DNA of 64,000 nucleotides from Membranipora membranacea (Eukaryota > Bryozoa > Gymnolaemata > Cheilostomatida > Membraniporidae), in assembly GCA_914767715.1 (NCBI GenBank), contig OU612070.1, positions 263,501-327,500 on the forward strand, in the 5' to 3' direction. Both the position numbers and the translations under genes were made by a program. Below the pieces are notes generated by a model that searched no databases, was not told the DNA's origin, and saw only the letters and a program-made list of their open reading frames with translations. Shown one piece after another: positions 2,150 to 60,120 of this stretch; within the stretch, counting starts at the first letter, position 1; each line of letters opens with the position of its first letter.

Positions 2150-2273
2150 CAAGCTTGAGCTTTGGCCCTATTATTGAGCTAATGACAAACTAAATGTATT
2201 TATGATAATTTTTTGCCTTGGCACATTCTTGTAATCATTGGTAGGTTTAAAATGTCGTTTTTCAGAATCTAGA

Positions 2274-6157: not shown

Positions 6158-6161
6158 TTAA

Positions 6162-6425
6162 AACTTGGCCCCAATTAGTAAAACTTGGCCCCATATACAA
6201 AACGTCGCCCCAGGTTATAAAACTTGGCCCAAATAACTAAAACTTGGCCCCAAATATAAAACTTGGCCCCGCGAAATGAAGCTTGGCCCCAATTATTAAA
6301 ACTTGGGCTCATGTACTGAAAATTGGACCCAGTAACTAAACCATGGCCCCATACAATGAAACTTGGCCCCAATTAGAAAAACCTGGCCCCAAATATATAA
6401 CTTGGCCATATGTACTGAAACTTGC
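6162..6425. repeat. CTTGGCCCC minisatellite, right block
   Basis: This is a continuation, same strand sense, of the left array: about 13 degenerate 19-21-bp units beginning CTTGGCCCC. The units are more diverged (ACGTCGCCCC, ACTTGGGCTC) and fade out near 6425. Confidence 0.9.
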
Positions 6426-23442: not shown

Positions 23443-27157
<3,715 letters not shown>

Positions 27158-35719: not shown

Positions 35720-37930
35720 ATTGATGCCGACTGCACTCACAGAGAAAGATTTTTGTACCCTCTCGCCATTGTTGGTTGCACGTTTGGGGGTTGCCTGCCA
35801 GTGTTTTACACCTGAGAGTCGCTGCCGCTGGTGGACAAACAAGGGTGTCCAGTATAAAGGCTTGACTCAAGAAGCGTATTGTAGAGCGGGTCGACTCGCT
35901 CTTTCTTATTGTAAGTGGTGTAAGTGTGAGTTTCCGTCATGTAGAAGCTGTGCCGATACCATATGGTGTAGCTAATTGAAACACAAGGAAACCTTAGTTT
36001 CATGTAAGTAGATCAGAATATATAAATCACGATAAACAGTAAACTTGAGCAGGTGACAGTAGATACAATACTCACAAGATAATGTCCATCTTCTATCAAT
36101 GGTGGTTATGATGTTTGACTAGAGAATATACCCTTGAGATACTTGTAGGTCTCGGATTCTTCAGCTAGCTCAGAGGTATTTAGTATAGGAGATTGTAATT
36201 ATAACATTATCTGAGCTTGAGTTTTTTTATGATTGTCAGCTTGTTTGGCTTATCATGACTCTCAGTTGTTGATGAACTTTATGGTCACAGCTGTCAGATA
36301 TATAAATGCCTGTCTGACTAAAAGATCATCACAGAATCACCACGCCCTCACAGGATAGTATTAGTTTCAGGCTATGTAGTCTTATGTCCTGTCCCTGTCT
36401 AAGAGTGTAGGTTATATCAGGTTCATCTATCCAAGTGGTCCGTGTTACAATAGTACTGCTTATATTCAATGATGTGTCTAAATAAATAGGGTAAACATGG
36501 AAAATGTGCCAACCATCACAAAGTATTACAAGCTACGCTATGGAGTCCCTACCTCAGCTAGATCTACCATTTATCACCTAGCCTTCCTCGACAACACAAG
36601 GCTAGCTTTTCTCATATCACTCAGTCTATTGGATCTATCTGATCGATTTTGTGCATGCTGTTCAAAGTAATTCCTGATTTAGAACTTAACTGCCTATTGG
36701 AGAGTTATCATATCATGAACGTAGCTCAGAAAATCTTCCAGTCCAGCACTAGTTTTTACAAAGGCTGGTGAGATGTTTTGTGATGTTGCCACTATGTTAC
36801 TTATACTATTTCCATATCTGCGATGATCACAGTACTTTACAGGGAAGTTAATAGTTAGGTGCTATCAAACTTCATGTCACCCTTGTTCTGTATTATCGCT
36901 GAAATCTGAATGTGTGTCAACAAATGATAGGCTTGTAGAAAACTCAAATTTTATTTTTTCTCTTACAAAATATGACAACAAAAACTGAAAAGATTTTCTG
37001 CATTGAACCATTGCAGCAGTGATGCAATGTTAACAACAATTAAGGCTCCACTGACAATCCCTCACTCACCTTAGTATGTGTGAGATACGGGAGTCCCAAA
37101 GTACATCACCAATTTATAACTAAATTCACTACGTGTTCGTATATATCTTTATATCATAAGGGAACTGGGATATACAATTAGAAAATATTGTACAACAGAT
37201 CGTTATTATATGCCCGTGATTACTTTACATATGTTCTAAAAAATTCCCACCCACACTCAGGGGACTTATCGATAACCAATTTAAAAGGATAGACCATTTT
37301 TAAGAGGATCATACATGATCTAAATGATGAAAAATTACAAAATCTAACGGTGACAAAAATCTTACAAACAGCAAATAATGAGAATTTATGTCTAAAAAGG
37401 AATGAACTGATATAGATAATGGATATTATAATGGTTATATGATTTTGAGATAATAGAAATAATAATTGAAAACAAGTACTTTCTATAAATCCAATGCAAT
37501 ATTGATAAGTGGCTTTGGTATCTCAATCAGTGACCAGCTACTTGTGTATCTCACAGATAGTTGATCTTATGCCATCGATGCGTTGTGCGTAGCGTGATGT
37601 CACACTGTAGTGGTAAGTATGTGTGGACTAGGTGGTTAGAGAGTCAGACTGATGACAACTCCCGCTACATCAGATAGGTGTATTATCATCCAGACTAACA
37701 CAAGCTTTATGGCATCCAGGTTGAGAGAAGAGAGAGAGAGAGAGGTACGACGTCGTCACACTGCTACTTTAGTGCAGTTATGTATATATTGCATTGACTT
37801 TCTATGTGGACAGTACAGTGTACAAATTTTGGGTGATTGAGCGATCAGTCCTGATGACTATAAGCTTTATAAGCTTTACATATGCTCTAGGTGATGATTG
37901 ATCAGTGATGATCTCTAAGCCTGATCAGAT

Positions 37931-37953
37931 CAGCAGCAGCAGCAGCAGCAGCA
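37931..37953. repeat. (CAG)n microsatellite
   Basis: About seven CAG/GCA triplets just beyond the receptor stop codon, in the probable 3' UTR. Confidence 0.9.
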
Positions 37954-37971
37954 GGTGGTGCTGGGCTAACT

Positions 37972-38148
37972 TTATACAGATTCACAGTCCTGTTTATGAG
38001 GCGGAGAAGAGGGAGAAGTTTTACTCATCAGTTTAGTTTTAAGTTGGTCTATAGAGACGTAATCTACAGATTCATATCGAGATGGTATCCTAACAGGCTG
38101 AGAGTCACCCAGATCTAGTTCAGCGTATATTATCTTATCATCACTCAG
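37972..38148 (-). CDS. Receptor last exon with three ITIM-like motifs
   Basis: The 177-nt exon (acceptor ATATTTGTAG) encodes 58 residues with IIYAELDL, SRYESVDYVSI and a Ser/Pro/Lys-rich end (...HKQDCESV, TAA). IIYAEL is a textbook ITIM. The open frame starts at the acceptor in phase 0. Confidence 0.72.
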   Translation of the reverse strand: MSDDKIIYAELDLGDSQPVRIPSRYESVDYVSIDQLKTKLMSKTSPSSPPHKQDCESV

Positions 38149-41100
38149 CTACAAATATCATAAACAAAATAATAAAACATCTGGTCATCATAGCAGGGAG
38201 GGCGGCACCCACCCTCCCTGATCATAGTATTAGTAAAAGGGCAACAAAATATGCTCTAAACTAGGAGTTGTTTTCTCTTGATCAGGAAGAAGACAATTGA
38301 CACAGCACATCACAGCAGAATTATTCTCTCTACTATGCCAGGGAGGGTGGCTGACTATGCCCACATCACAAACTGGAAGGTGATTACAGCAGCTAGCTGT
38401 ATGGCACACAGTTTTGGCATATTGTGCCTTCGTAAGGGCCAGAGGAGAGGTCATACTGAGAACTGAATTGTTAAAGTCTCACGACAACTCCAGTCATTAC
38501 TGACATACGTTACAAAGCTATTTAGATATGGCCGCCATCAGCATCAGCAGTTGGTTAAGTATTACAGCAGCACAGTTTGTAACATAGAAATGGTGATTGT
38601 TAATTATGATAGTGTTAGAATTCTAGATTTACAGCTAAATAAATGTTATAATCGGTGGTTTTATTTAGCAAATCAAAATTCCTACTTGTACAAACCAAAT
38701 CTGCCTGCGATGCTGAAAAAGTGAGCGATAAAAACAATAAGCTCGCTGCAGACCTCGCTGCAGACTGAGATTAACCCAGTAGGTGTCCGTCATGTGACTT
38801 ATACAGCCAGCCAGCAGTCGCGCCGGTGTTTTACAGGATTTTGTGTGTAAGCTGATACTAACATATTGAGGACAAATATTGATTTTAGGTTTGTCAAGTT
38901 AGAGTAGAATATTCTCCTACAGCACAGCGGCTATTTATCAACATAAGGACAGGTGGTGTAATAAGGAGACACCATATTACTGTATACTATAATATACCAC
39001 TGGACCATATGGCAGTGCTACACACAGTCACCTTAATATAACCTACACCAATTACAGGCTAATCATCTTACATTACATCTTACATTAATGGTACAGCAGT
39101 AAGATAATTATACCAATACAGCCCTTTACACAATGTCTATAGCTACGACTGAACAAGAGATAGATTAGCTTCCATTTACTTAACTTAGTACAAAATTCCC
39201 TGTACTTCATACTTGTGTTTGTGAAAGGCTCAAAAACTAATCAATATCAAACTCAAATATCCCACTGCAAAGTACAAGTGAAATGAAGCTTAATATTAAA
39301 CTTACAACTGGGATAAAAACCTAGAAACGTTATTTTAATTTTAATCAGCTGACAGGGGCGATGTGATAAAGAGAACAATCGTGACACTCCTAACTCTGAT
39401 CAGCTGCAGAGAGTGATAAAAATTATCAGTTATTTCAGCTGTTAGCCATGTCTGATAACTCATGTCTGATAACTCATGTCTGATAATTCAACACAAAACT
39501 AAATCAGTCATAAACATGACTATCCCACTGCAGTCTATTGACTATCAGGGTTTTCGGTTGGACCTCAGGTCTGTGCTCCAACCTGCCTAAAACGGAGAGC
39601 AATTTGGCGCAGCAATTGCAGCCTCGCCCTTATGGCTATTAGTATCTTGCCGCCAATGTGGCGTGTGATAAAACAACCTGGTTTTAATCAACAATTTTTT
39701 TTAATTGACCATTTCCACGTAAGTTTAAGCTGTATTTATGTTGCATGTTTTATGTGACTCGCCCAGAGCCCCAGACTGATATTATACACATTTAGACCTC
39801 TCTGGTATTTGAAGGGAATGATTAGTGTATATACTAAACACTAAATACTAAACACATGCCGCCTCCGCCTCCGGGGTTAGCTCCACTTCCTCATACAGAG
39901 ATCAGATAACATGACTCAGGGAAGGGCCGAGGACTGAGGGGGAGGCTGGAGGGAGTGTTGTTGTTTTTTCAGTCAAAGTCAAGAGCAGTATAATATGTTA
40001 CACTTTACTGACTTGACAATGTTTAGAGGTTTGTATGGAATCAATAATCAATATAAAGTAGCTTATAAGCTACTTTGTGACTAATACCATATTACTAAGG
40101 ATTCAATAACAAAGCCTAGTGAATAGCAGACCAACACTCCACACATGTCAGTAAGAGAAATATTGACAAAGATGTTCCACTTTAGCAGCTAAAGTCAAAT
40201 GTAAAAATTCCTTTTGAATAAAAATGTGTCAGAATTGTAAAGGACATCTTTATACACAAGTCGGCATTCAGTCAGATAACTAGGTTCTGGTACCGAGGGC
40301 TTTATATTCTACTATCAAGTGTAAAACAAAGCAGCGCAGCCGGGAATGTGAATCTCATTGGTTAGCTTGTAAAGTTGATACAAAATCTGTTTCAAGTACA
40401 AATAGCCAACCTTCTCAAATCCCAGCGGACTGCATTATTATATGTTTGTAATAAAAAGAAAATCTGTCTATAAGGAGAGCAGCAGTGGAATACATGAGCG
40501 AGGAGAGGCATGACTATATGGCTTATATATGACTGGTGCTTATATATAATTCATGGTCTAGATAATACTCTGACAAAGCAGTCATTGATTTTCCCCCTAG
40601 AGAATCACTCAGCATAAAAACTGTGATAAAAAACACTAGTGTCCTGTATTGTTATATACAAGTGTTGAACTTTTGTCTTCAGCTGAATTTTACACTGGGC
40701 AAATATCCCCATGTATAAATAAATGGCTTTGTAATAATTATCTTAGATTTAACTGGTATTTTTTATGGTTTGTGACTTGAGCATTTAAATATTTGGCAGT
40801 TAGCCAGACCATGAGAGTGAGTATCTGGAATTCCGAGACAGGTTTGCAGCTCAACATGTGGATAGGATATATAATTTGGTTATTCAGCTGAACAACCGCA
40901 ATCCCACAATGCATTGCTCAACCACCACAATGTGGAGCTGTAGCTGTAGCTCGACCAGCGGTACGGTACACCGACAATGTGAAATCTAAATCACAACACA
41001 AACATGGGCCAACACAAATATGGGCATATTTTAATCCCGATTTGAAATTTGCCGTAACAATATAGGTGATTCATCCTGCTGGTCAAATGATTCCCGAATT

Positions 41101-44100
41101 CTGAATCACCGCAAACATTTCTGAGTGTTGCACAACATTAGCCTTATATGTGTGGTAGGACAGGTATTGCAGAAAATTTGACTGTGTGAACAACAAAGTT
41201 ATTATGATCAAGGTTTCATAACTCCCTGATATAATGTGCAGCCTCTTATTCTCTTGCCAGTAACATTCCCAGTACATCCGCTGAGGAGGTCACCTTACCT
41301 TACATTGACTGTAATAGGAAAACTTATTAGCCATATTCTACAACAGTTCTATATACTGTCTTATTTGCCTTGTAGTGTTATTAGGTACAAAAGTCAATAA
41401 AACAGAGCTAATCCTAGCTGTGACCTGGCTAGCTTAGCAAGGCCAATAATATTTACTACACTAAGTCATGTGTATATATGGACCTATAATCTGTCTGCGT
41501 GGAGTAGAGAGGCTGGAGAGTAGATCTGACCACTACTCACTCAATAACTGGGTCAGACTGACATGTGACACCAAATATTACTGACCAGATCCGATAAAAC
41601 ATCAGACTAACTCTCTCCCTAATAGTAGTAAATAATGTCAACCTTGTCCAAAGTCTGCTTCAGATGGCTTCAGATATAGAATACACAGAATACACAGCAG
41701 AGTACCACACAGAGTACCAGCAGGACTGTGTTATTGTTACATTATGTGATGTCAGTATTCAGTCAGCTGATCAGGAGGAGACAAGCTCTGCTGCTGCTGC
41801 TGTGACTCGTATGGGAGCCGTGTGTGAGCAGCAGAGACGACAGCAGAGACAGAGCTTGTAATCCTCTGCTGCCCTGAGCTGATGTCAGATTTTTCTAACT
41901 GGAGGTGCAGGTGTACCGATTATATGATGAGATGACCGATCAGATACCAGCAGGCACACCCAGGCTTCTCTCTCAGTGGTGAGCGGCGGAGTACCTGGTA
42001 TAACTCAGCCACTTAGCAGAGGGTACCTGGCCGACTCTGCTCAGTTATTGAGCTGTTAGGTAATTTTATTGGTCTTGTCTGCTCTTTGTTTAGTGTTTTG
42101 TTTCCTAAAGTATTAATAACTATTAATTTTTATTATTTACGCCTCATACCTGTGGAATAGTTACATAATCCAGGTCATAATACTTGGTACTTGTACGTGG
42201 GTCACTGCCCTTGATGCGCCTAAAATAGGGAAGCCAATTGAGAACTGTCTCAAACTTGGTTAATCAGGAAATTAACGGTGGGTAATTTAAGGGATTAAGA
42301 TTTAAGTTTAATGGCAGCTTGATATGTGGAGAGTAATAAAAAAGCCTCAAATAATGAGATCTGAATTCAGTCACCTCCTCCTCCCTATACCAGTGGTAGA
42401 GGGATATTATCTGTATAGGAATGAAAGAGGAAGCTGTGAGAGAGCCAGAGATAATATATTATCTGTGTACGATCTCTGCTGGTAAAGTGGCTGCAGTCAC
42501 TATCTCTATATCTTAGTTACAATCAGTTATCTGAGTAGTGAGGTAATTACAGACTGTGTGTCCTCAAGCCGAGCCGCCGAGCCGCCGAGCCGCCGAGCAG
42601 CATCACACTATTATCATTGTTTTGTATTTCCTCTCGTTATACTGTGTGAGTCTATCACACCACTAAGATTTACTGTCACACTATACTAGGAGGCATATAA
42701 AGAGAAGGAGGAGGCAAACATGCAGAGTTAATTCATACTTAACATGCGATCTGATACTAGACTCTCTATATAACTATCCCTGCTATCACCACTTCCTAAT
42801 ACTGCCCTAATCGTTATCTCTCCTCCCCCCCCCCCATGCAGTGGTCTCTATATACTACTTATGTATCAGTATCTTAATCACCTGGAAGCACATGGCTTTG
42901 ATGTTGTCCCTTTGTTCTCTTGCCGTACAGGAGGCGGGGGGGGGGGGGAGGGGGTGACTGTGTATCTCACAGACGAGCTGACTTCGTGCAGACCATTACT
43001 CGTATCTGATAATGGCCTAGTGGCTTTAGTGGCTGTTGTTTATTCTTTTTATCAATTGAGATCAAGTCCATCGTTGCAATCTCAAATTATGTTATTATTA
43101 TTTTGTTCAATGTCACAAAGCCTGATGTTGATGTGATGTTGATTTGTGCAGTTATGAATGTGGTGATTTTTGTGATATTTGATTGACATTTAATTAGAGC
43201 TGCAGTAAAAGGCTAGCCAACTCTTCACCATGGTGCAGGGCTTGTAATTCTAACCTTGTAGCTGTAGCTGGGTAGCTGCGAGACAGCTATGCTAATCACT
43301 AACCTATGCCAAGTTTTAGTTGTATATTGTCTACTGGAGGAGCAAGCCTTGATATGCTACAAGAGTCTCCCCTTCAGTAGAAGGCAAACAGACAGCTGAT
43401 GTACAAACATGTTATTTACTCAACCTGTCATCCATAACACAGTATTAATTTAATAAGAGTTTATTATACAAAAGTAAGGATATATCCTTACTCTGTGGCA
43501 TTATAGAAGGTGTCACAAGTATATTCTGTGAGGAAGATGGATGTCATAACGATTATGAGCCGGGTGTCTGTGTAGCCACCGCTAAACTATTAATAAACTC
43601 CTCCTCGTACATATCTCATTCTAAATCTCAATTCTAATACAACTATAATATTCAAACCCCCCTAATCAGCATAAACTGTTTACTCGGCAAAAACAATGAG
43701 CAAACTTGTCTCTCCCACAAGGCTCAGCAGACCCTGGCAGGCAGGATTGTCACAGTAAATTTACTGACAGGTGACTACTTAAATCGGTTATTGACTCCCT
43801 GAAATAATGCCAAGTTACAATCATCTGTACACCAAATCTGATTTAGCAGATAATGATACTACGGTGGTTTCTGGTTACATGCCAAGGACTGAGAGGAGCC
43901 AGGCGGGTAATTTTTGAAATTTTTCTCATGACACCCAGATGGCCAGTCAAGCTACAGACATTGTAAGATTGACGTTATGCAGTCACACAAAGCCTACCCA
44001 CCTCTGCACTTGATCATTACCTATTTTTATGAATAATGACATTTTCTGATGTCTTTGATGTGTTGGAGGATTAGAGATATTTGTAATGTTTTGTTGATGG

Positions 44101-47100
44101 TTTTAGCAGACCAGCGTGTTGAGTGTTTGGTTGCGTGGCTGGCTGAGTGGCTGGTTACCTCTATTATAATACCATCCATCACAAAGTAAGGATATAGATA
44201 TCCTTATTCTGTGATACCATATACCCTCAAAGGCTAACACCTCAGGCTAACACTGTGATTCATATGGTAATCTTTTGTTTACTAGAGTAAAATGTGGAAA
44301 TAAAAAACAAAAATGTTGGAAGCTGTGCAGTGGATGAATAACTGAGATATCTAGACGGATGAATACTTAAATTTGTGAATGATTCTCTCCAGTTTATGGT
44401 GCAGAACTGATAGCCTGTTACATTCTGACTAAGATTTAAATCTGACCTAATTACTATCTGATAATATCGGCACAGCCCGGCACTATTGATTACTTAGTTC
44501 TGGGTCAAACTTTTATCTTGGCTTGGGAAAAAATACAAATGCAGCAGTGATAATATTAGTCATTTAAATAAGCTTGAGTTTAGAGCTTCGGCAGCTCCAG
44601 CTTAGAGCAGCGCTGACTGTGTGAACTGATCAGTACTTTATATTCACTTGTGATTCACAAAATCAATACTAGATTAGACAATCATAATGTAATATCATAA
44701 TTCTTCATCATGCCATGGGACTAAAACTCGTCACTTTCCAATCAACCCTAATTTTCTTATACAAAATGATTTTTAAGTTGAGGGACGGGTGACATAGCCT
44801 CCCGATCTCTAACCAAACCGATGACTGGTATCACAGTGTTTTATAGAGAGTTATTTTAGAACTGGCTAACACCAGTCGAGGGACTCATAAGGGGATATGT
44901 AGAGATTGTTTTATGACAGCTTTTTGCACTTAAGCTTAAGGCCCTCGGGATTCCTAACCTTGCTCTAACTTATCCTTATAATGGCTACAAGCTATCATTT
45001 AAAATTCTCAGCTATGCATAATCGATAAGTTTGTTTTAGGCTCTGTTCGAAATTAGCAGACAAGATGAACTGATTGACATTGTGTTAATTTTTTTATTAC
45101 GCCAATTTAATACTAAACCTATACCCTATAAAACAAACCAGGTACCTAATTATCGTCACCCCCATGTTTTATCTCAACTCGGTTTTTTTAATTTTCTGAC
45201 AGACACACCTAATAATACATTATAATATTCAGGTTACTAAATTAGATTATAAAACAGCTCTTCATATTATCGATACCTGTTATACACAGACTTTGACCTG
45301 CACAAGAGAAGAGCTTCACTAGATTATGTGCCGATTATAATCAGAGTTGTCCCCCCTCCGCCCGAGCGTCGGCTCATGGGTAGAGGATCACCTGGCGTAT
45401 AATACCGGAGGAGAAGTGACAAGCAACCTCAAATTATCCAGACTGTTATCAACTTGTTACCAGTGATGGAGTGTGTGTGAATTATTACATCATCTTACTG
45501 GCGGCGATGTTACTCCAGCGATGTTACTCCGGCCAGTATTACCGTTATATACACACACCTAGTCACCTAGTATATCTATAATACTAGTTAATTATATGTA
45601 TCATGTATCTGTTTATAATGTGTCGGTGATGAAGGAGCGCTGCTGCCTAGGGCCATCTGTCTGTCTGTCAAAGTTAAGTACCGTTATATAGCCCTACCAT
45701 TCATGCTGGTGTGAAATTTGTCGGCTATAAATGTCACGATTCCTACCTAAAGCAGCTCCCCGTGAAGCAGGCTACACTACCAAGCGGTAGAACTCAGGCT
45801 ACACCACCAAGCTGTGTGACTCACGAGCTTGTTTATGCCCCATCAGATTTCTTAGATTAGCCGTGAGTTTATGATGTGCTGGTTTGCTGAGTGATATTAC
45901 CTTGTTACTTTGTTTGCTTTTTGAATGATGTACTTGTTCTTGCTCAGCTTACTTTATGAAAAGCCTTACATCTGGTGATAGTGGTTAAAGGTAGTCTGGG
46001 TTATTTCCTGATAATGACTCAAGTCTACAGGAGGTGCAGCTCTTTATAACAGTAGGACAATCACAGCCAAAGTACTGATACTACAGATTGATCTAATTCT
46101 CTCATATTGTCCTAATACTGTCATAGCTGATTATCAGGCTAACAGATGGTCCCCAGCTAAACTCTCCCAATACTTGAATTATTTTAGTATTCAGTTTACC
46201 AAACAAAATATAAAAACAATGCTAAATATTATTATCAAATTAATATAATAATAAGATAATAAGTAAATAAAGCAGGAGGTATATTTTACTTACATTTATT
46301 GCTTTCCTGATTCGTCAGAAGTGGTTTTGTCGCCTCCTTCACTGTAAACATAAAATAAAACTTCTATTATTGGAGGTCGAGGTCTTGTAAATATAACACA
46401 GCCTATGGAAGATGGTTACCTGTTCGAGGGGGGGTGTTGCCTCCACCCCAACCACAGTTAGCTATCAAAATTAGGCTATGTGTGAGACAGCATGTACCAG
46501 ACATCAGTGAAACAGGTACGGTGGAGACAATCTCTGTGAGGACGTAATGTAATGAGGCATAAATCTCAGACTAAGAAATATTTGAACTCTACTCAATGGG
46601 AAGATATATCAGAGTAGGGATTTATATCTGATAATAAGTGCATCTAACCATTACATAACACACACACTACCTGTAGTACCATATACCAGTATATTCTGGA
46701 GCTAGAGGTACCGCACTAAGTGTTATTAATTGATGGTTTGGGCCAAGTTTGTCCACCACATGAATGGATAGATTTATAGATAGAATTCTAATGGCAGATC
46801 AAGTCTGATTTTTTTGGCTACAAGTGATGACAGATTTGTGTGAGGAAGGGAAAGATGGCATTAACAAATACAAAACATAATGTAAGGCAGAAATGTGCCT
46901 TGTGTTGTGTGCCTTGTTTGTAGGTCAATATAAGAAGTGAAAAGAGCAAATGATAAGTGAATATATACATGAATGCGTGGATTTGCTTGGCGGTAAAATT
47001 AACTGTGGCTTTCAGCGTTTTACAACCTTGTTTGCTTGTCCATTGTTTCTCTTCAAATATGAAAAGCAGTTATATACACAACACAAAATAGCATCAAAGC

Positions 47101-50100
47101 ATTTATGGTGGAAATAGGTAATTGCTCGACTTTGATAAATGGGAGATGGCAAACTGATGTATTAGTCGGCTTTCGTAACTCAATCAGTCAATTCAACCAA
47201 GTTCTAAGTCAGTAGCACAGGGCAGCATGAAGCTGTCCAGGAGAGGGGGAGGGTGGACCGAAGCCGTGTCTCCTAATAGATGTCGCCTAAACTTTTTGTT
47301 CAGTGAAGACTGAAGTATAGCAGAAGTGGGGTGCTCAAAACACGTCTATCATGAGATTGGAGGGTCGTGTGTCCCGGATTTATCATTGAGACTGAATTAA
47401 CAAAGTCATGGTTGAAACGCAGGATTTGTCACAACACCAATAACTACAGATAGCCTACAGAACAAAAACCAACAATAAGAGAGACCTTTTAGCTCTTCTT
47501 TATCTTGATCTGGTTACAGATTGTAGCACACGCCGTATTTTCCACAGGTTTGGGGCATCTGTAGCTCTGCCAGATGCATAGGATAGCTAGGTTAGCTCTG
47601 CCAGATGCCTTGTTGGTTCTATCCGTAGCCAGCTATTCCTTTGTTATTTGTGAAAGAGGTGGGGCTTAATTAAATTACTAAATAGTGATTGGTTTAATTC
47701 ATTCAAGTTGAACAATAGGAAGGCAAAGCAGACCCAAATTGTATTGTAATTGAAAGGAATAGGCCTAGCTATTAATAGGCGTGTGTAGCACCTTGGCCAA
47801 TCCGTAGCCTTACTAAAAGTTTCCCAATCCTATGGATACAACAATACAAATAATACATCTCAATACTAAATAGTGTGTACGACAGGGTATCAGGTGTGGT
47901 GATGAGCTCACAGCTAATACTCGCCAGATAAAAACTCTATTTTTATGGCCAATTACAGCTTTGTGAGTGCCATTTACAAATATTGCCTGTTTCATCAATA
48001 CTTGTCAGTGTAAATACTAATTCACACAAGCCAACATGGAGGTGTAACCTACTGGTGTGATCTAGCTAATATATCAGTGTGACTGACTTTGATTTCTCTA
48101 AGCTAACAGAGCCGGCTGACTATGTAATATTATATACTTCCTGTCTGCTTTATAATTTGACACAATGTCGACCAGTCAGATTCGGAGATAATAATAGTGT
48201 TTTGTGAATCTCCTGGTGATTTTTCTGGACGATCGCAAGTTAAAGCCAGCGATTAAACTGCTGTACCCTATAATCATCTATTGTCTGCCCACTTCAGTCA
48301 GAATGCAGCACGTATCACTTAGATACACAAAATATGTTCGTCTAAATTTTAAATTGTAGTCCAGGGTAGGCGGGTAGAAAGAAATCATTCACGCCATGAG
48401 GAGTTTGACTAGATTCAGACAGGCAGTAGGGAGAGGGGTGGAGGGGGGGGGTTAAGTGATCTTAGTTTTGTCACTCGGGTCGAGGGAGACAAAACTAATC
48501 ACATTGTAGAGATGACCCAGCAGCAGTATCAGCACCTCAGACCAGCGAGCTCACAAACCAGCGAGGTCTAACGATACCACAAAATTATAACTGATTGACA
48601 TCTAAGTGTCTTATAACACCAATTGACTTATTGATTCTTACATAAATACATTATAATGCATTAGTCATTCATGTGTAAATACACACATCAATGCATTATT
48701 GCTGGGCCATTATGAGCGGCTGGCCATATATTGGAATATTGATATTTGCTGGGTCAAAAGGATGCATGTTTTTGAGCAGTTAAAATTGGCGGCAATAACT
48801 TAATATTTGTCTAGCCTAACTAGCCCACTGGAAATTCTAAAGAGAAAGTCACACTGTGTGCAAACATACTAAATATACGGACTAACTAAACATTATTATT
48901 GAGACCTTTCCTTGATACTGCAGCTTATTTGAGGCCTTGAAATCAAAGAATTTTTTTTAGAGCTAATGTGCCAAATAGGTTTTGATTATTTAACAAAGTA
49001 TTTCACTGATTCAGTGAATAAAGTGTGAAAGTCAATAACAGTGGACTGTAAACCTGTGCCGAGAGCCGCAGAGGATTATGGGTCATAGTGTTATATCTCA
49101 TGTGTTATATATATCAGTCTGCTGTGGCAGCTCAGCTCTTATTCTAAAGCTCCGTCATCTTACCTCTTCAGGGAAATAGCCCCCCCCCTCATACCCCCTT
49201 CAGTCCTCCCTCTAACCCCGTGATCATGCTCTAGACGACAGCACTAGACGAGGATTATCCCAGCACTTTGATTATTACACACACCAAACCTTGTAAGAGG
49301 CTCAAAATGACGGAGCCAAATATTATTTATTAGCTTTTCATGCTTTTATCAACAACCAACAACAATTATTATTATTATTCAAGCCTTGAAGTAAACCACT
49401 GCTGCCTGCCGCTGCCTGCAGCTACCCAGTATATACATGAGGCAGCGCTTCAGCCCATAACCGCTGACATAGCCGCTGACATAAGCGCTGACATCAGAGC
49501 ATTAGATCATCCTTACTGTCACTGTGGCGAGATTAACATTACTTATATCAGGGACAGAGTGAGATGGAAGAGAGAAAATGTGATTCACTTCACGGGACCG
49601 GCCAACAACTGCCTACAACATTTTCTGAGCTTCCAGCGTTTAATAATACACTGCACCATTGCAGAGCAGAGACCATATATACAGCCTTCAGTCTCTCAAA
49701 TAAAGCTCAAATTTTAATTAATTAATACGACATGTACTTGGCTCTCACACAAATGAGCGCTTTTTGTTGTTTGCAGTATTTAGCTACCGCAAAACACTGA
49801 AAGCTCAGAAACAACGTGCCAGGCGACCCACAGGCGACCCACAGGCGACCCACAGGCGACCCACAGGCGACCCACAGGCGACCCACAGGCAACCCACAGG
49901 CGACCCACGCGAAAACAACAAACTCTACTAAAGCTATATAACAACATAACTTATAATACAGGATAAAAGCGTAAATGATTAAAGTAAGTAGAAGTAGTGG
50001 AAAATAGATAAAGCCATCAAACGATAATAAGTCTAACCAGGGAGGGGTCCCTGGTCTAACACGATTACTTGTGTTCAGTTATCATACCTTTCCTGAGTTA

Positions 50101-53100
50101 ACATTGGTTCTGTAGGGAACAAAATGAGAGAGAAATAATTACAACCAACATAACAAAGAATCTCAGATTGCATACACAGATATCATCGACACGCATCATA
50201 CAAAACAACGAGACTGTGTACACACTGTCAGTGATTAATATATCGTGTGTGCAAAATAAACTTATCTGATTTAATAAAATATACAACACGCCTAGACTGT
50301 GATACATATCAGGTGGTGGGTTAGGTAAGCAGGAGGCGGAGGAGGTAAGGAGATGTTAGGTCAGTCATTGTGTGTGATGGCTCTGAGGCTAAGATCAGAT
50401 TAGAAAGCCGACATGGTCATTACTCTACTACACTAAATATTCGCCGCCCGCCCGCTCGCTCGCTCCGTAGAGGGTATGAGGGTTGGTTCTTTTGTTCTGA
50501 TGTGACTGTTTATTTTAGTTAGATAAGAGATCGAGATACTTGACTGCCTGTCTGAGGGTGTAACTGAGGGTCAGTGGCTTGTCTCTTGCCTCACTAACCA
50601 CCTCACAAACCGCCTCACTAACAGATCAGATACTGTGAGATTGATATTTAGATAGATCTATATGTAGCGTAATTCTCAGTCTCAGAGATTCAGATATTAT
50701 TCTAATTTCATATTTACATAAACAAGTGGAGAGGATGGGGAGATAATCTGATACTTCATCTCCGATCAGAAGATCAGACGCTGCCAGCGCTGGGTGTAAA
50801 TATCTCACATATCTCATCTCATCTCATACATCAAACTAATATAGGGGGAGGCAAGGCATGCAAGGATGAGGGATTGCGTAGAAAAACTTAATTTGTAACG
50901 CCATGTAACGACACGATCTACGAGTCTTGGCATTGTGATTATCAATTGTGTACATCTTGGCATAATTTCAAATTTGAGGATATTCAAAGTAAGGGTGTGA
51001 AAATTTATTGCTAATACCAAACATAAAATTATCATCTTCAGATGAAGACTTTTCTGGAATAATAACAACACAACATATTTAGAATATTTAAAGCTAAGAG
51101 ACAGAATTGCATCATTTATATTGGGAGGCATTCTGCAGTTAGCCATGCTGGTCACACCAACCAATCAAGGTAACCAGGGAGATAGCATGCAGAGACGGTT
51201 ACAGGTCTGACAGTCATTGGACTGAGAATTATTAACAATGACTTAATCATTTTTTGGATAAATCCCTCAATCTACCTTTTGTGCAGAGCCTGATGTGAAT
51301 TTATTATAAATTCTACCTCAATATTTAGGCGGCAGGCTTGTGAGATAAACTTTGACACTCAGCATTTTTATGCAATAATTCATCAAATATGGCACGCATC
51401 AGTGTCAGCTGTTATATATTATTGCGCCTTCTTCAAAATAAATAGGACATACAAGGCCCCAGTTTGGTTCTCGGGGAAGGGGGGGATTCATGGACGCCCC
51501 ATCATACCAGCATCATACCAGACTTAGATGTGCGGTGATTCAGCTCTGATATATCCTGATTTGTGAGGGCTACTCGTCAGGTAATTTATTCACATGAGAA
51601 ACTGGCACCAGATACTGATATCCTGAATAATCTAAATATATTACAAGTGCAACATTATCATGTGGCTTTCAGTGACACATGTTAACCAACTTCTAACCTC
51701 CTTATAAATCACATAGGATAGTGAACTTTGAACTTACTAAGCAGACGCTGAACAAACTACCAAATATCTGATCCATCCATGATTCCCCTGAGCGGCCCCT
51801 GAGCGGCCCCTGCGAGTTCTCAAACTTTCCCGGCAATATTTGTTTAATATTTAATTTACCAAACCCCATGTACTCTGTACTGTATGTACTTTTTTGTATC
51901 ATATCTAGTATTTAGGTTACAGCAGGACAGCAGCGACAGCCAGCGTCGAAGAGATGTTCTGAGACAAAGAGTTAAGTAGAATGATAAGTAGAATGATAAG
52001 CACTTATTGATTAGCTCATTCCTAGTATTTGTCCCCAGAGAATTATTCCCATTTATAACCCATTTCCTTTTAAACCTAATATAGCAGCAGCCACAGCCAG
52101 CAGCTAGCAGAGGCTGTTGTATACATGTAATGTAACTTCAATAGTTTCCTTTTGATTTTGTTAGAGGCAAACTTGTGTTAAAAAAAAGAAAAGGTTTAAT
52201 TATTGATTGGAGCGAGTTTCGTCATGTTATGAGACTCATCAGTAGTTCGTGTATCATCAGAGCATGATGAGAATAATAATACTTTGTCACATTTTTGTAG
52301 CACTGAAGCTAGCATGCAGCGAAAACATCAATAAATTTAAGATAATTTCAATTTGATGAATAAGACATCTGCCATGCAATGGGATTTCATTGAACAATCA
52401 CATCTGTGACTTGGCTTGTGAAAGTCTTCATTTCCTAATTAAGTAATTAAGGTGAAGTTGACTTGATTCACCAGCTTTTCTTCACTGAATAGAGCTGAAA
52501 CCTTGTACTAGACTTTATTGTATTCTCATACATATGGCATTCTGAACAAGTCTTTGTCTTTACTATGGCCTTTATTATATGTCATGGTGATCCCAGTAAT
52601 TCACTTTTCAAAATGTGCATTAAGCTGTTGAGTACAGAAGAAATTAAGGGTATTTAGTGGTGAATACTTATTGTATTTGTCTCGTTTGTTTGTTTTGAAC
52701 TGATCCACAAATCCACAACAAGAGATGAGTGTTTTGTTTGAGGAAAGCTGGGGAGGATTAGTGATGGTATATTTACATCCCCCTTGCGTGGTGAGATGTG
52801 GTGTACCGGTGGTGAGATGTGGTGTACCGTTTATGTACCCTCTATGTACCCTGTATGTCTGTGGTGAGCTAGTCTTGTGTTAGTTTAAGAGGCGTAGGAG
52901 GAGAGGCGACTTTAGAAGACAGAGAGGAAGGGTTTAATGAACTCTACTTTGTCAAACTTGTGACTATTATTAGCTTCATTCTCACAGGACTTGTGGCCAA
53001 TTAGGTTACATTGTTATTGTTCATGATGAATTAATATTACGTTATTTTGATACAAACTTTTATACGCTGGCACCCCCATATTATGAACCATTTCACAAAC

Positions 53101-56100
53101 TGAGCAGCTCTCCTCAATCAACAAACATGTCATCACTCTGATGCTGCTGCTGCTGACACTGGAACTGCTGACGCTGATGGTAGAGAAATTAGCTTATTTA
53201 TGTCGCTATAATTTTATGTGATCAGTGAGTCTTATTTTGGCCTTTACCTAACAAAGGACATTAAGGAATGAGTAGCCTATAGAGGTGCTAATGAGATATA
53301 AAATATCATTAAATGTGAGATTAATGAGTTAGATATGATCTGAGATTACCACCGCACTAAATCATCTATTACTGAGTCAGCTAGGAGAGTACAGAGATAT
53401 GAGATACTGCAGACTGCCGAGCGAGGTGGTACATAAATACAGCTGACGCTGACAGCAGCAGAATAAGAAGGATGAGATGTAGATAATTGAGTGAGATATA
53501 AGACTCATGGAATGTTCAGACAAAACAATCACCACCATGTGGGCAGATGTGTAATCTGTCTGTCTGGGCCGGCTGACTGTATCATTATAACTTATTTATT
53601 TGTGTGACTACTTATATCCGCTGTAATGCAGATTGTTTCCAGAACCCGGTAGGTAAATGATTCGGATAGCAGGAGAAGCCTTCTCCGTTTCTACCCCCCT
53701 CCCAGAAAATTCGAAGTTTGATAAGCTGGCTGATGAGTTTATCATAATGACTGGAGTTTGTGAAAAGGTTGAGTGTCGGAGGATTGGCCGAGTTAGGAGA
53801 GGATGGGCCGAGTTAGGAGAGGATTGGCCGAGTTAGGAGAGGATTGGCCGAGTTAGGAGAGGATGGGCCAAGTTAGGAGAGGATTGGCCGAGTTAGGAGA
53901 GGATTGGCCGAGTTAGGAGAGGATTGGCCGAGTTAGGGGAGGATTGGCCGAGTTAGGAGAGGATGGGCCGAGTTAGGGGAGGAGTACACATATATATATA
54001 TAACTCTTACCTGTCACATCAGCATCTCCATTTCCTTGTTCCGCATCTTTATCTCTACAAGATTGAAACAGGGTGTTAAATAAATAAGAGCAGTAAGAGG
54101 AGGGGATGGAGGGCAGCTGTCATCGCGAGGAGGGGGGAGGGCAGCTGTCATCACGATGGATCACTGTCATCTGTGGTCATAAGGTCACTAGATTAGGTAT
54201 GCAGATCTTTTGGTAAATCATTTAGCCGAGTAAAACAAATTTTTGTGGTTGGCTGATCATCAAAAGCCTATTAATAACTAAAGCTGATGATGTTAACAGT
54301 TTAATTGGCAGCAGGCAGCAAAGGTGACGATTGAATTATAATAGTTTATATGTTTTTTATTACTCCTCTGATTCACAAAGCTCTGAACACAAACCACCTA
54401 AACCAACAGCGGGCAGTCGGCGCTGATTCAACCAGCAGATGGAAAGTCTTTGAAGGTAGTTTGTTCCACATGAAATAATCATTAGCTATGCATGACTAAT
54501 TTTTCCACTACAGTATCAAATTCACACACACTACTACACTCTGCTGATAGGATAGATCTCACTGATAGATCTCTTGGCTCGGTCCCACGATTCAGGGTCC
54601 TGATAACAGGATACCGCCAGTGCTTTAAATAACTTCACAAATGTACCCGGTCTTTCTTTTTAAAGTGTTTTATTGATGAGGGCTGATCAATGAGATGGTA
54701 ATTTTTTATTTACAGCACAAATAGTGACGCCCTGATGCTGGTAATACAGACTATATTATGATAGTCTAAGAGAGAGAGAGAGAGCTGTTGTGTGTATTAC
54801 TCACTTTTTAGCCGGTGCAGATACAGGTTTCGAATCTGAATCTAAAAACGATAGAATAATAATACAGATTATAGTCTCTCTGCTCTAACAGTTCATTATC
54901 ATAGATTCAGATTAGTTACAGCAGCGGGCCATGGCTGTCCCTGAGCCAGCGAGAACCCAGTGAGATCCCAGCACCCTTAGTCATCCGGAAACTATTAAGT
55001 GTGCTGGGGAAATACCAGGAAAAAGTGAACACTTGAAACTTGACATACACCATTTCGAACACGGGTAACTGTAAATTGCTGAACAGGCTGAACAGCTGAA
55101 CAGAATTTCTCAGACTACTATTATTGTTTGATTCTTTACATGATTGGCTAAGTTTGCGTAAGCATGGACAGTTCTTTATATTCTTCTCATTAAATTATTT
55201 ATTTTAAGTTTGCATTCACCTTGGTTTCTTTCAATTTTATTCACAGTAAATTTTTCGTCGTTACACTTCTAGTGAATGGATGGAAAGTAGCCCCCCCCTC
55301 CCCTATAAACAAAGCTTGTTAAGACTGGCTAGATGAAAGGTTGAGCTGGATAATGTTTCTGGTGTCCAATTTCCAGAACACCATCAGATTTTGTCAGAAA
55401 TGGCACATTGATTGCTTCATTTGCTTGTCCTAAATTGGTTATATTAGGTGCCAACAGGAACTTAGTGATAGTCACCCAGAGAAATGACTACAAATAATAA
55501 TTTTAGTCTGAGAAATTCTGTTCAGCTGTTCAGTCTGTTCAGCAATTTACAGTTACCGTTTCAACACTGATACAATTTGGCAACAAATCATGACATTTTC
55601 TAATTTTTAGATTTGCAAATATCTCAGATCTTTAGTTACATATATTCACAGGCCTCGATGATAAACAGATAGATAGAGCTGGGCAGACACTATTGTGGTA
55701 TATGTAACACCGCGCCGAGTAAGGATATATAAGTAGGCTGAGTAGAGTCAAGGAGGAGATGATGATAACTTACTGCTGCTTCTTCTCTTGATGACGATGA
55801 TAACGATGACGACCACGAGTATCACCACAGTGACCACTACTACTATTATAATAATAATAACAGTAGGATCTTTATCTTCTTTACCTCCCTTAGACTCATC
55901 AGCATCTCCTCCCATATCCTTCTCACCAGGGCTAAGCTTCCCTGTGGTGGTCGGTTTGGGGGTGGTGGATGTGGTGGTGGTTGGGGTAGATGTGGCCACA
56001 TCCCATGTGATGTTATACTTGTAGCTAATAGTATCGGCTGTAATAGATAATAATAATGATATAATAATGCTATTTATTTGTCACCAGCTACTCTACAGGG

Positions 56101-59100
56101 TGGAAAACACATAGGTGATAACGTGAAGATTCTGGGCAACACAGTCTGTACTTAGGTCGGGACTGCTGGGAAGAAACAGAATATAACTTGTATTGATTGT
56201 TTGCATGTCACAACTTCTTATGTTATGACTTTTTTTAGCTGATGGCCAAGTCAAAACACAGAAGAGTATAATTATCACCCCCCCCCCCCCCTCCCCTCTG
56301 TGTGAGATTGAATGCATACATTAGCGTACCTAACTTAGCGTCACCGTTGACAGAGGCGGTACATTCATACATCTCTATAAGAGTCTCGTTCAGAGAAGCA
56401 TCAGCACTTATAACTATAGAGTAAGTAGTGTCCTCCATATCCACACTGTCCTGTGTCCACCTGTACTCGATGGTGGCTCCCTCCTTCAGGTTGTGATTAG
56501 TCGGGCACTTCAGCTCCTGTGTAGTCGATGGGTTAATGGCCAAGCTCTCAACAGCAACCTGTTCTGTTTTCTTAAAGTCTACAAAATACAACCAGATTTC
56601 ACCAGATGAGATGAACTACCTCAAAAAAAAGCAAAGAGTAAAGCTAAGAAATGCTAAGTGATATTATGGCTCATTAGGATTTTTAGTACCTGGCCGGCTC
56701 TCTTTAATCACAGTAGATATAAATATCTTAGTTTAGTAATTAAATTGTAGTCATTGTGGGAAGCTTCCGATTTTACATAACTTAGTTATGGCTATGCTAA
56801 ATAATGCTGTCATCATGCGCAGCTAATAATTCTGATGCATGGCTGATGATAAAAAGGATACAAATAAGCATAACAATGAGCATCAATCTGCATAAATAGT
56901 CTTAATGATCTCAGTTAGACAAAGTGGTCTGGGGGCAGACTGAGGGGCAGAGCCTGCCTACAGGTAAAGTGGCAGACATTATAAGAGGGATAGACTTTAT
57001 TTTAGTACTTAGGCACACAGTTTTATATGAGTGACACATACTTAGATAGTAGTCACTGTTTATAAATTCATTCAGTGTCTCGACACCAAAGTTTAGTATA
57101 ACTCCTGTAATTATCTCACAGAAACAAAGGAGGCGCGGAGTCCAAACGTCCCCTAGACTTTGATAGAATCTTTAGTGGGGAGCCTACTCTTTGTGTCAGA
57201 AGCCTTACCTACTACGGCTTTACCCTAAGCTTTCAACAAGGGGCACCAGCTACAAGCCCCAACAGCTACAGGTACCGATAACTAAGGCTACCAATTACAG
57301 GCTGTAAGAGCAGAATATTGCTCATACATCAGCAACCTTTGCTGCTGGGTGAGATGCTTTATATTGAAACTTCAAATAATATAACCACAAAATCAGGTTG
57401 TTCAGTGAAGAGTAGAGATTATTATTAATGACTTACAGTAGACGGTAATTTTCCTCTCCTGTCTGGTAATGCTGGGGTCAGATTGTAGATTAGCATGAGC
57501 TTTATCTCTGCATGAAAACACGGCTTCATTATCAGCTACCTGTACAGTAAACTGCTCGATACCATTCTCCTCTACTACACCATCTCGTTCTGTAATATGC
57601 ATTAATAAACATACAGTACACGCCATGATGCATTTAGTCATCTCTCTCTCGAGCTTAGGCATAACGGGCAGAGTTTTATACCAACATTTTTTTTTTTGAA
57701 AAAGGGGTGCGGATGGACAAGTAAGGGTTGATATTGGAGTTTATAATCCATATATGCACTTTGTTCTTGAGAAGGACGCCTGTCTTTGTGATGGTTTTAC
57801 AGCAACTAAGAGCCATAACAAAGTGAATATTGTGAGATAAAAATCAATACAGAGGAATTATTGTCACAAATAAATTATACAATACATGCAGCTAAAACAG
57901 TGTAAGCAGGTGGCTTCTGTCTAAACAAAGCCTCATATCCCAGGAGAGAGAGGAGAGGGCTTATGTAGTATTTTTATGCCAAGAACTAAACCTAAGAAAA
58001 CAGGAGTAGTTTGTACTTTGGGTAAGATCAACCCCTACATGACGCACTCATAGTGGTTATATAGGCAGGTTTTATCTCTATAGACACTTCTGGGTGGTCT
58101 GACTATTAAATCATTTACCGCTCAGAATAACACAAGCGCTTGATGTGAATGCCCAGTCCTATATAAACATATCAGACTTTCTATGCTTCTCAGAGTTTGA
58201 GAAAGCCCTAGCTATGGTCGGCACATTTCATGGGAAATATTTAATACAGCCATTTGCATTCAAAAAAATGTTGCTAGATTTGCAAAATGGGGCTTTGCAG
58301 GGCTGACAGATTAAATAAGACTTAATTCTTACCATATTCGAGGTCTGCGGCCGGGTCACCCCCTTCAGATGTGCAGGTCACAGTAGCAGTTGATCCGGCA
58401 TAGAGTCCTGTTGTCCCGTCAACCTCATCCACTGGGGACCCATCGTCTGCGATCTCCATAGTCATGCTAGTCGGGGCGGCTGCAAGATGAATATTCCAAC
58501 TATTATTCTTTTCTCATACAGTGAGTGTTTGAGAGCCGTTTTGGTTTCAAAATCATGAGAAGGGAAGCCTCAAAATATTGGTTATTATGGTAGTAAGATT
58601 CAGAACAACCAACAGCTTACAGTTTCATTGAAACAATTCTGACTAGTATATTGCTCGTGATATTGCATGATGCAACAGCAATCCTTCATCATAACAATGA
58701 CATGGATGTCGTTGTTCAATTTTATACCAAACTAGAAGCTATATATGGAGTGAAATTAATAGGGATTACTAATTTATAGTACCTTACTTCTCACATGTAA
58801 AACAAGAAGTAACCAAATAATCATAACCGCAGCGGTAAATGAGTAATTTTCATATTTGGTGAGAGTCTTTTTGACATTAAAAAGGTAAGGCCAAGAACTC
58901 AGAGAGTCATGACACAACGGTGGCTCAATGTCATTTTCTTCTGAGTGCTACTGAGATGTGAATATGATCGGTGTGTCAGTACAATGCTTGGCAGTACTAG
59001 TGTGAAAGTTGGGTGATAATTGTATACAATCATTGGCAGATACTATCAGTTAAAACAAGGCGGGTTAGCTTTCAATGTTTGAAGGGCCAGTCAGGCTGCG

Positions 59101-60120
59101 CACGGGTATATCAGGAGCAGGTATTTGGAATTCTATAGAAGTCATTTGTCACCAAAAGTAGCTGCAATATTAAAATCGCAGACCAACCAGTTACAGTAAA
59201 AGGAAGTCACAGAATTATATTTACTTACTGTAAATGTCAGAGTCAGAGACATTGTACTCATCACCGAAAAACTCGTAACTTTCTCCAACATTCCATGAGC
59301 TACATCGGTATGAGGCGGCTTGAGACACTTTGAATTTAAGGTCAAGAGATGCGGCTGTATTTCCTAGAAGGGCATTGTACACTTCATCACACTGCTCCTG
59401 TTCAGGTCCAAACTCATTAGCCCCGTTAGGGTTGACAGAGTTCCCTCCTGGACTCATAGTAACAGAACAGCCAATATCGCTTGTTCCGTCAACCCGCAGC
59501 CCAAAACCACCCAGCTTCGTCGGGTCGGCACGGACTCCAAAGTAACATGTTAGCGTGATCTCGTCATCAACATAAAAATCTGGATCATTTGGCAAAGAAG
59601 CTTCAATATCTGAAACAGAAGAAAATACGTCTTATCTAAACATGTGGCGGTAATGATATGAGCGTTCCTTTCCCTTGGATGATGTAATGTGTTTTGAATA
59701 CTACCAAATTAACACACACACACACATCACTAAAAAATAAATAACACAATGCCAACCAATAGTTAGTATAAGGGTCTTATATCTTCAATCTTCATGGATG
59801 CATACATTTTATACCTAGCAAGTAAAGGTAAAGGACAGGTGAATGAGGTTGCACCGCCAGATCTATCTGTTATCTTCAAACTTGTTTATTCAATTTTAGT
59901 GCCAATTGAAATAATTTATAGTCATGCAGTATCAAAATATGAATGGAACTCAAACTGACATGCCTACATGAATTGAATAAGTGTATTAAAAAATGTTACT
60001 AAACACATTCTATGTAGAGATTAATTAAATGTGCAGATCAAATTAGAATATAAAGATCTTACCTTGCGACAATGCGTAAGATAGCAGACATACAGAAATC
60101 ATCCAACTTAGATGACCCAT
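37972..60120 (-). CDS. Ig-superfamily receptor with ITIM-bearing cytoplasmic tail
   Basis: Eleven exons on the minus strand join with matching phases to 533 residues: 60120-60063, 59609-59229, 58479-58333, 57589-57437, 56578-56330, 56037-55774, 54841-54805, 54054-54011, 50109-50088, 42219-42150 and 38148-37972. There is a signal peptide (about 1-19, MGHLSWMISVCLLSYALS). Ig-like domain 1 is exon 2 (TLTCYF...YRCSSW), domain 2 exons 3-4 (TVTCTS...FSCRDK), domain 3 exon 5 (LKCP...YRW...YECTAS). Then come a Thr/Pro stalk, a membrane helix of Ile/Val (389-412) and KRR. The tail carries LDYVTI (Y470), IIYAEL (Y483), SRYESV (Y500) and VDYVSI (Y505), all fitting [SIVL]xYxx[IVL]. TKYYDL (Y465) is a further YxxL. 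ITIMs recruit SH2 phosphatases in vertebrate receptors; an inhibitory role here is inference. Ectodomain exons are nearly all phase 1, as usual for Ig genes. The weakest link is the joining of tail exons across introns of 4-8 kb. Confidence 0.72.
38187..38227. mobile_element. 27-bp palindromic micro-insertion, 7-bp duplication
   Basis: CAGGGAGGGCGG...CACCCTCCCTG (38194-38220) forms a hairpin and is flanked by ATCATAG on both sides. Confidence 0.7.
38332..38360. mobile_element. 15-bp micro-insertion CAGGGAGGGTGGCTG, 7-bp duplication
   Basis: The 15 bases (38339-38353) are flanked by perfect ACTATGC repeats (38332-38338 and 38354-38360). Confidence 0.65.
42150..42219 (-). CDS. Receptor tail exon with LDYVTI motif
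   Basis: This 70-nt exon (acceptor CCTATTTTAG, donor CACAG|GTATGA) encodes RIKGSDPRTSTKYYDLDYVT + IPQ. It requires a preceding exon ending with two bases of a codon; exon 9 (50109-50088) does so. It ends at phase 0, matching the next exon at 38148. The motif and the phase fit support it as real tail sequence. Confidence 0.65.
43472..43497. repeat. AGTAAGGATATATCCTTACT palindrome
   Basis: A second copy of the palindrome family at 34098, with a truncated left arm and an intact right arm (TCCTTACTCTGTG). ATTATA occurs on both sides a few bases out. Confidence 0.55.
44180..44213. repeat. CACAAAGTAAGGATAT palindrome
   Basis: A third copy of the family: CACAAAGTAAGGATAT pairs with ATATCCTTATTCTGTG across a 2-nt loop. 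ATACCAT occurs close by on both sides, but not exactly at the borders. Confidence 0.55.
46294..46341 (-). CDS. Candidate alternative tail exon of the receptor
   Basis: This 48-nt segment has a strong acceptor (TTTACAG) and donor (AAT|GTAAGT). Spliced after exon 9 it reads SEGGDKTTSDESGKQ and a stop, giving a short tail without tyrosine motifs. Spliced after exon 8 with exon 9 skipped it is open (VKEATKPLLTNQESNK) but then shifts exon 11 out of frame. It is therefore not used in the ITIM form. An AATAAA hexamer overlaps its end. Its use needs transcript proof. Confidence 0.4.
49820..49909. repeat. 11-bp minisatellite CAGGCGACCCA
   Basis: Eight head-to-tail copies with one substitution (CAGGCAACCCA). 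Confidence 0.95.
50031..50060. mobile_element. 16-bp palindromic micro-insertion, 7-bp duplication
   Basis: CAGGGAGGGGTCCCTG (50038-50053) is flanked by perfect GTCTAAC repeats. It lies only about 28 bp from the small receptor exon 9. Confidence 0.7.
50088..50109 (-). CDS. Receptor exon 9, 22-nt microexon
   Basis: Acceptor TTCCCTACAG and donor GAAAG|GTATGA bound 22 nt encoding EPMLTQE plus two bases. It is the only phase converter (1 to 2) I found between exon 8 and the ITIM exons, so the ITIM frame depends on it. Confidence 0.55.
50110..54010 (-). other. Receptor intron between exons 8 and 9
   Basis: A 3.9-kb intron with a 20-bp minisatellite at its upstream end (53781-53980) and a duplicated GTGGTGAGATGTGGTGTACC near 52790-52830. 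No exon or gene was recognised. Confidence 0.5.
53781..53980. repeat. 20-bp minisatellite GGATTGGCCGAGTTAGGAGA
   Basis: Ten copies with TTGG/TGGG and GAGA/GGGA variants, ending about 30 bp from receptor exon 8. Confidence 0.95.
54011..54841 (-). CDS. Receptor exons 7 and 8 (juxtamembrane tail)
   Basis: Exon 7 (54841-54805) encodes NSDSKPVSAPAKK and exon 8 (54054-54011) encodes DKDAEQGNGDADVT. Both have consensus splice sites and phases 1-2-1. They follow KRRSS from the membrane exon. The tail here is polar and lacks tyrosines. Confidence 0.68.
55064..55557. mobile_element. ~490-bp inverted-repeat element in receptor intron 6
   Basis: Ends GGTAACTGTAAATTGCTGAA are inverted with about 54 bp of arm on each side, including CTGAACAGCTGAACAG and AATTTCTCAGACTA. 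Flanks read TTTCGAACAC and TTTCAACAC, a possible 9-10-bp duplication with one indel. No protein is encoded. Confidence 0.65.
55774..56037 (-). CDS. Receptor exon 6: stalk and transmembrane helix
   Basis: The exon encodes a Thr/Pro-rich stalk (TSTPTTTTSTTPKPTTTG), an acidic/Lys linker, then PTVIIIIIVVVVTVVILVVV continuing to IVIIVI and a KRR stop-transfer. Splice sites are ACAG at the start and AGCAGCA|GTAAGT at the end, phase 1 on both sides. Confidence 0.88.

Follow-up and report, generated by a model that had tools for sequence, protein, structure and literature searches.

The sequence [SIVL]xYxx[IVL] is the consensus of the ITIM, which recruits SH2-domain phosphatases in vertebrate inhibitory receptors. 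SIRP-alpha combines three Ig domains, the N-terminal one of the V type, with one membrane helix and a tail that contains four ITIM-type tyrosines, and in the SIRP family the V domain is followed by two membrane-near domains of the C1 set. Cell-surface receptors with ITIM-like motifs in the inner tail have been described before, in vertebrates, in sea squirts and in one cnidarian. ITIM-type tails on Ig receptors outside vertebrates have already been reported in Hydractinia and Botryllus: a 2025 review (PMC12065747) describes Botryllus FcoR as a receptor with one V-type and two C2-type Ig domains, a helix and a long tail with ITIM, hemITAM or YxxI/L/V motifs, and refers to candidate genes of the Hydractinia alr locus for which ITIM or ITAM motifs were reported. 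For sponges, ctenophores and placozoans, the portions of two other articles that we consulted (PMC11999971, PMC11747439) mention no ITIM receptors.

The window, i.e. the whole stretch of 64,000 nucleotides analysed here (GC content 37-41%, which is near the 39.1% of Mnemiopsis but not diagnostic), probably contains a receptor gene whose product sits at the cell surface and bears four ITIM-like phosphatase-docking motifs on its intracellular tail. From the features of the sequence we propose, with a probability of roughly 0.6, that its minus strand contains a single gene for a type I membrane receptor of the Ig family with a four-ITIM-type tail, either inhibitory or adhesion-signalling. Along this strand, from position 60120 to 37972, a series of ordered exon-like pieces leads from a signal peptide to an ITIM-type tail, and these pieces, their frames, the tyrosine motifs and the signals of membrane topology can be read directly in the DNA (Table 1). 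The predicted product would comprise a signal peptide, a V-like unit, a C2-set Ig domain, a third Ig-like unit, a Thr/Ser/Pro-rich stalk and a membrane helix, followed by a tail assembled from small exons.

Table 1. Exon-like pieces of the proposed receptor gene, in order of reading.
Piece	Positions	Strand	Content	Basis or remark
E1	60063..60120	-	ATG start and signal peptide MGHLSWMISVCLLSYALSQ	signal peptide by eye
E2	59229..59609	-	D1, V-like unit with ITLTC and ASYRC	sequence pattern; no Pfam match
E3	58333..58479	-	D2, first half	Pfam C2-set_2, E 3.7e-5 jointly with E4; weak CD276 match
E4	57437..57589	-	D2, second half	Pfam C2-set_2 with E3; weak acceptor, 80.1th percentile
E5	56330..56578	-	D3, C-W-YxC Ig pattern (C24, W40, C72)	pattern; no Pfam Ig match
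E6	55774..56037	-	end of D3, Thr/Ser/Pro-rich stalk, Ile/Val membrane helix, KRR	leaves in phase 1
E7	54805..54841	-	putative tail exon of 37 nt, SDSKPVSAPAK; entered in phase 1, left in phase 2	splice-score rank 7 of 27
E8	54011..54054	-	putative tail exon of 44 nt, DKDAEQGNGDADVT; entered in phase 2, left in phase 1	splice-score rank 1 of 27
E9	50088..50109	-	putative microexon of 22 nt, EPMLTQE; entered in phase 1, left in phase 2	splice-score rank 4 of 27
E10	46294..46341	-	doubtful cassette, partly alike to E9	splice-score rank 2 of 27; absent from all in-frame subsets
E12	42150..42219	-	tail exon with LDYVTI	splice-score rank 5 of 27
E13	37972..38148	-	last coding exon with IIYAEL, SRYESV and VDYVSI, C-terminus ESV, stop	acceptor at the 87.8th percentile

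An earlier sequence-only reading of this locus had given 60120 and 37972 as its ends, and both are exact, the former being that of an ATG and the latter the end of a stop codon. It was likewise right about the splice sites, GT-AG borders being present wherever the exons it named are joined, about the stalk and the Ile/Val-rich membrane helix, which both lie in E6, and about the four tyrosines, as LDYVTI, IIYAEL, SRYESV and VDYVSI all match the ITIM consensus. Its statement that the phases agree holds for one part of the gene and fails in another. E2 to E6 each enter and leave in phase 1, and exons that encode Ig domains usually start and end in this phase; however, E6 leaves in phase 1 and E12 is entered in phase 2, so a direct joint between them is out of frame. 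Such a joint reads KRRSSSASRAVTHVQVPSIMTWIM followed by a stop, without any ITIM, and was rejected. E13 is entered in phase 0. The donor of E1 (AAG/gtaaga) falls at the 99.7th percentile of the GT sites of the minus strand. E4 and E13 have weak acceptor sites.

An Ig-type ectodomain and a single membrane helix are present, the former indicated by the profile of D2 and the latter, like the signal peptide, recognized by eye. When cut out, D2 reaches 24.1 bits with the Pfam profile C2-set_2, over the cut-off of 21; inside the whole protein it scores 20.9 bits, just below that value. For D1 and D3 no Pfam Ig profile is listed up to E = 5, in a listing from which the program omits most matches above about 0.1. 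The peptide of the D1 exon has cysteines at 21, 47, 73 and 102. Folds predicted from the single sequences had a mean pLDDT of 38.2 for D1 and 40.6 for D3, too poor for a fold search. Compared with solved structures, D2-D3 finds CD276 (E 0.0036) and SYG-2 (E 0.16), with no single stretch passing by itself for either protein and an unrelated exoribonuclease next in line at E 0.86, and the whole ectodomain finds no match among solved structures up to E 10. Thus, of the three Ig domains claimed in the sequence-only reading, D2 is borne out by its profile when cut out, and D1 and D3 are putative Ig domains by their cysteine pattern alone.

The membrane helix consists almost purely of Ile and Val, and its codons form trinucleotide-like repeats (ATT, GTA/GTG and GTC/ATC; 55774-55900, minus strand), as if this coding sequence had grown from a microsatellite. 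Membership of the TMEM154 family was considered and rejected: the score, 30.8 bits in the model and 31.9 bits in the E6 ORF against a cut-off of 30.3, is ascribed to the stalk and the Ile/Val helix. The E6 ORF also matches the Orf78 and glycophorin-type profiles.

The membrane exon E6 lies 13.5 kb from E12, the first ITIM exon of the tail. In one alternative explanation, the two ITIM exons are part of a different gene, or not exons at all, and the Ig receptor ends in a short tail after its helix. Reading through the donor of E6 would indeed yield a 13-residue tail (KRRSSSKLSSSPP followed by a stop), with an AATAAA at 55241, and this alternative gains from the length of the gap and from the fact that the exons proposed to bridge it are not significant. 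We nonetheless regard it as unlikely, in view of four kinds of evidence: the ORFs of the region, the membrane helices, the motif counts and the codon score of E13. Fourteen ORFs of the minus strand that lie between E13 and E6 were scanned singly, and their only Pfam match up to E 0.01 was Imm31 at E 0.004, which is below its cut-off. At the cut-offs used, none of the 27 splice-bounded segments between E6 and E13 (open segments of 12-350 nt with acceptable splice scores, from 38.2 to 55.8 kb) contains a second membrane helix.

The motif counts argue in the same direction. The strict ITIM motif has 401 occurrences in the 119869 six-frame residues of the window, and three motifs within 58 residues are found at three places, one of which is E13. 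Four motifs appear in 12 of 200000 shuffles of the tail residues. Among dinucleotide shuffles of the 18-kb interval, 18 of 600 contain at least four motifs, be it in a last exon or in two exons of matching phase; on the real plus strand of the interval the maximum is 3. If a hydrophilic composition is required as well, by a cut-off that was picked after the real tail had been seen, a single shuffle in 2000 has four motifs. The motif count of the tail therefore exceeds chance, on the assumption that E6 is joined to E12/E13. Just one other of the 27 segments has a strict ITIM, and its score is far lower (4.1 vs 8.3).

As to the coding signal, a codon score as high as that of E13 was reached in 2 of 568 control windows (stop-free and overlapping), and in none of the 568 if the score is trained on neighbouring genes only. 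The score of E12 is not significant, 451 and 385 of 4983 controls being as high in the two comparisons. Codon usage is in general a weak guide in this window, where negative scores are obtained for the sulfotransferase and for one piece of the peroxidase once they are excluded from the training. As for polyadenylation signals, the interval 36500-37975 contains a single AATAAA, at 36955 and thus 1 kb from E13, and no ATTAAA. The Pfam scan comprised 114 ORFs, at least 55 residues being reached by 235 ORFs of the window, 218 of them outside the two repeat arrays; it also returned an RRM_1 match.

Returning to the single receptor gene, the predicted phases imply that at least one small exon must sit between E6 and E12 if the ITIMs are to be read in frame. 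Five small candidate exons can be combined in 32 subsets, six of which leave all four motifs in frame, namely E7; E9; E7+E11; E9+E11; E7+E8+E9; and E7+E8+E9+E11. The chain E7-E8-E9-E12 is in frame, gives a protein of 533 residues and has the top splice score among 255 four-exon chains, where the splice weights are approximate metazoan frequencies. E9-E12 is the best of 41 two-exon chains, and E12 is also included in the best five-exon chain; among the chains with one, three or six exons between E6 and E13, the top-scoring one omits it. Longer chains score higher merely by their added exons. In all, the frame is kept up to E13 by 1858 chains with six exons at most, and only 499 of these pass through E12. 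Nor do the small exons exceed chance: the minus strand has seven good ones and the real plus strand one, and 38 of 200 shuffled intervals hold as many as the former, for which reason we dropped them as standalone evidence. The bridge from E6 to E12/E13 is graded as plausible and no higher because so many shuffles match it and so many chains are possible.

It is tempting to extend this scheme to a switch, in which the small exons of a non-bilaterian receptor with a SIRP-alpha-like layout would decide by their frame whether the four-ITIM tail is made. Splicing through E7-E8-E9, or through E7 or E9 alone, would bring the ITIM exons into frame; with E7-E8 in the absence of the 22-nt E9, or with E10, no ITIM would be translated. 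In both E7-E8-E12 and E7-E8-E10-E12, E12 is read in another frame and a stop is met there, and E7-E8-E9-E10 runs into a stop within E10. E10 and E9 share the sequence AACCA...TCAGGAAAG, with an equal alignment score in 0.5% of 5000 random 48-mers of the interval, and their phase 1 readings are KPLLTNQE and EPMLTQE, respectively; the two may be alternatives to each other in setting the frame of the tail. Motifs of the oligomorphic FcoR loci of Botryllus are described as swapped through alternative splicing (PMC12065747). If the switch were true, splicing would act as an on/off control of the receptor's inhibitory output. We consider it very unlikely, because the small exons themselves are not significant.

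With regard to function, the preferred reading of an Ig receptor with an ITIM-type tail suggests the following course of events. Once the tail exons have been joined to the membrane exon, contact of the Ig domains with a ligand, or with a similar molecule on a second cell, would be followed by phosphorylation of the tail tyrosines through a Src-type kinase, paired motifs would dock an SHP-type SH2-domain phosphatase, and the docked phosphatase would dampen nearby signalling or tune adhesion. A hydrophobic residue at pY-2 together with a small one at pY+1 favours SHP-type SH2 domains, and LDYVTI, IIYAEL and VDYVSI have both.

The same tail can be read in two further ways. The receptor could be activating or dual, YVTI-x9-YAEL across the E12/E13 junction forming an ITAM for a Syk-type kinase, with the other tyrosines in a modulating role. 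The pattern Yxx[IL]x(6-12)Yxx[IL] is matched by this pair, as it is in 1.6% of 100000 shuffles of the tail residues, and candidate genes of Hydractinia bear ITAM as well as ITIM motifs according to the review (PMC12065747). However, the spacing of 9 is outside the tighter form of 6-8, and the residues at pY-2 and pY+1 point to SH2 domains of the SHP type, which makes this reading quite unlikely. The second possibility is an adhesion molecule without ITIM signalling, with YxxPhi tyrosines serving endocytosis and sorting through AP-2, and the ESV end binding a PDZ protein. All four motifs and an additional YYDL match YxxPhi, and the C-terminal ESV matches a class III PDZ ligand; yet all four motifs possess the pY-2 residue of the ITIM, which YxxPhi does not require, and we hold this explanation, too, to be decidedly improbable. 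Of the claim in the sequence-only reading that the gene encodes an inhibitory or adhesion-signalling receptor, the type I Ig receptor with an ITIM-type tail is retained as the best reading and the inhibitory sign is not, the tail being compatible with both ITAM and YxxPhi; the use in self/non-self recognition that this reading thought possible is a conjecture. Whether the signal is inhibitory or activating cannot be read from sequence.

The remaining content of the window gives the genomic setting. The pieces at 261-2150 (plus strand) belong to a spliced gene of a class I heme peroxidase: the joined fragment matches Pfam PF00141 with E 5.3e-9 and contains GAHTLGKAH, and its best relatives among solved structures are ascorbate peroxidases (E 8.3e-13). 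One donor inferred for this gene (ATGG/gtacgc) resembles that of E5 (TTAG/gtacgc). On the minus strand there are exons of a cathepsin L-like protease at 23446-25917 (Inhibitor_I29 and Peptidase_C1) and an uninterrupted frame of 410 codons for a sulfotransferase at 30547-31776 (PF00685, E 2.2e-8), the codon usage of which scores below zero when trained on other genes. Together with the spliceosomal introns and the Ig receptor, the cathepsin L, the sulfotransferase and the class I heme peroxidase fit an animal genome; the early-branching position of the animal in the sequence-only reading is a guess. A fragment at 20620-21003 (minus strand) is similar to the RNaseH-like domain of ZSWIM1/3 (PF21056, E 1.1e-4, below the cut-off) and is perhaps a transposase remnant. 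Two tRNA genes were found at 19758-19833 and 26736-26818 on the minus strand, one of them, tRNA-Ile (AAT), by both ARAGORN and Rfam and the other by Rfam only (37.8 bits). Minisatellites are made of 16-20 bp units with AACTTGGCCC at 3183-4074 and 6159-6407, of a 141-bp unit in 4.2 copies at 12672-13258 and of a 30-bp unit in 19.6 copies at 15069-15654.

Searches for relatives of the receptor were carried out at several levels. The whole model had no homologue at E up to 10 among the 7994 candidates that share most words with it. Seven pattern matches of D1 in IMG/VR and 73 of E13 in the GTDB genomes were not confirmed by tblastn, animals not being expected in either collection.

In layout, the receptor resembles SIRP-alpha in its three Ig units with a V-type first one, its single helix and its four-ITIM-type tail. 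However, its D2 is of the C2-set_2 type, D3 has no Ig profile and the C1-set is not listed, so that membership of the SIRP family fails. With Botryllus FcoR, as this is described, it shares an Ig-family receptor architecture, a membrane helix and a tail with ITIM-type motifs, and it is set apart by the sushi domain of FcoR, for which the receptor has no match up to E = 5; membership of the FcoR group thus fails as well. The Alr proteins of Hydractinia, as the review describes them, are similar in being invertebrate membrane proteins of the Ig family with motifs of the ITIM/ITAM type; in contrast to them, the receptor has a single copy in this window (tblastn). The likeness of D2 to CD276 (B7-H3) and SYG-2 lies in the C2-set_2 domain, and E-values of 0.0036 and 0.16 are too weak for a family assignment. 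If the tail is truly part of the gene and the host is a sponge, ctenophore, placozoan or cnidarian, the locus would represent Ig-type recognition coupled to an ITIM-type tail far from vertebrates. Confirmed in this form, the receptor would be relevant to a proposal made in PMC12065747, according to which recognition receptors that are not related to each other converge on shared intracellular pathways.
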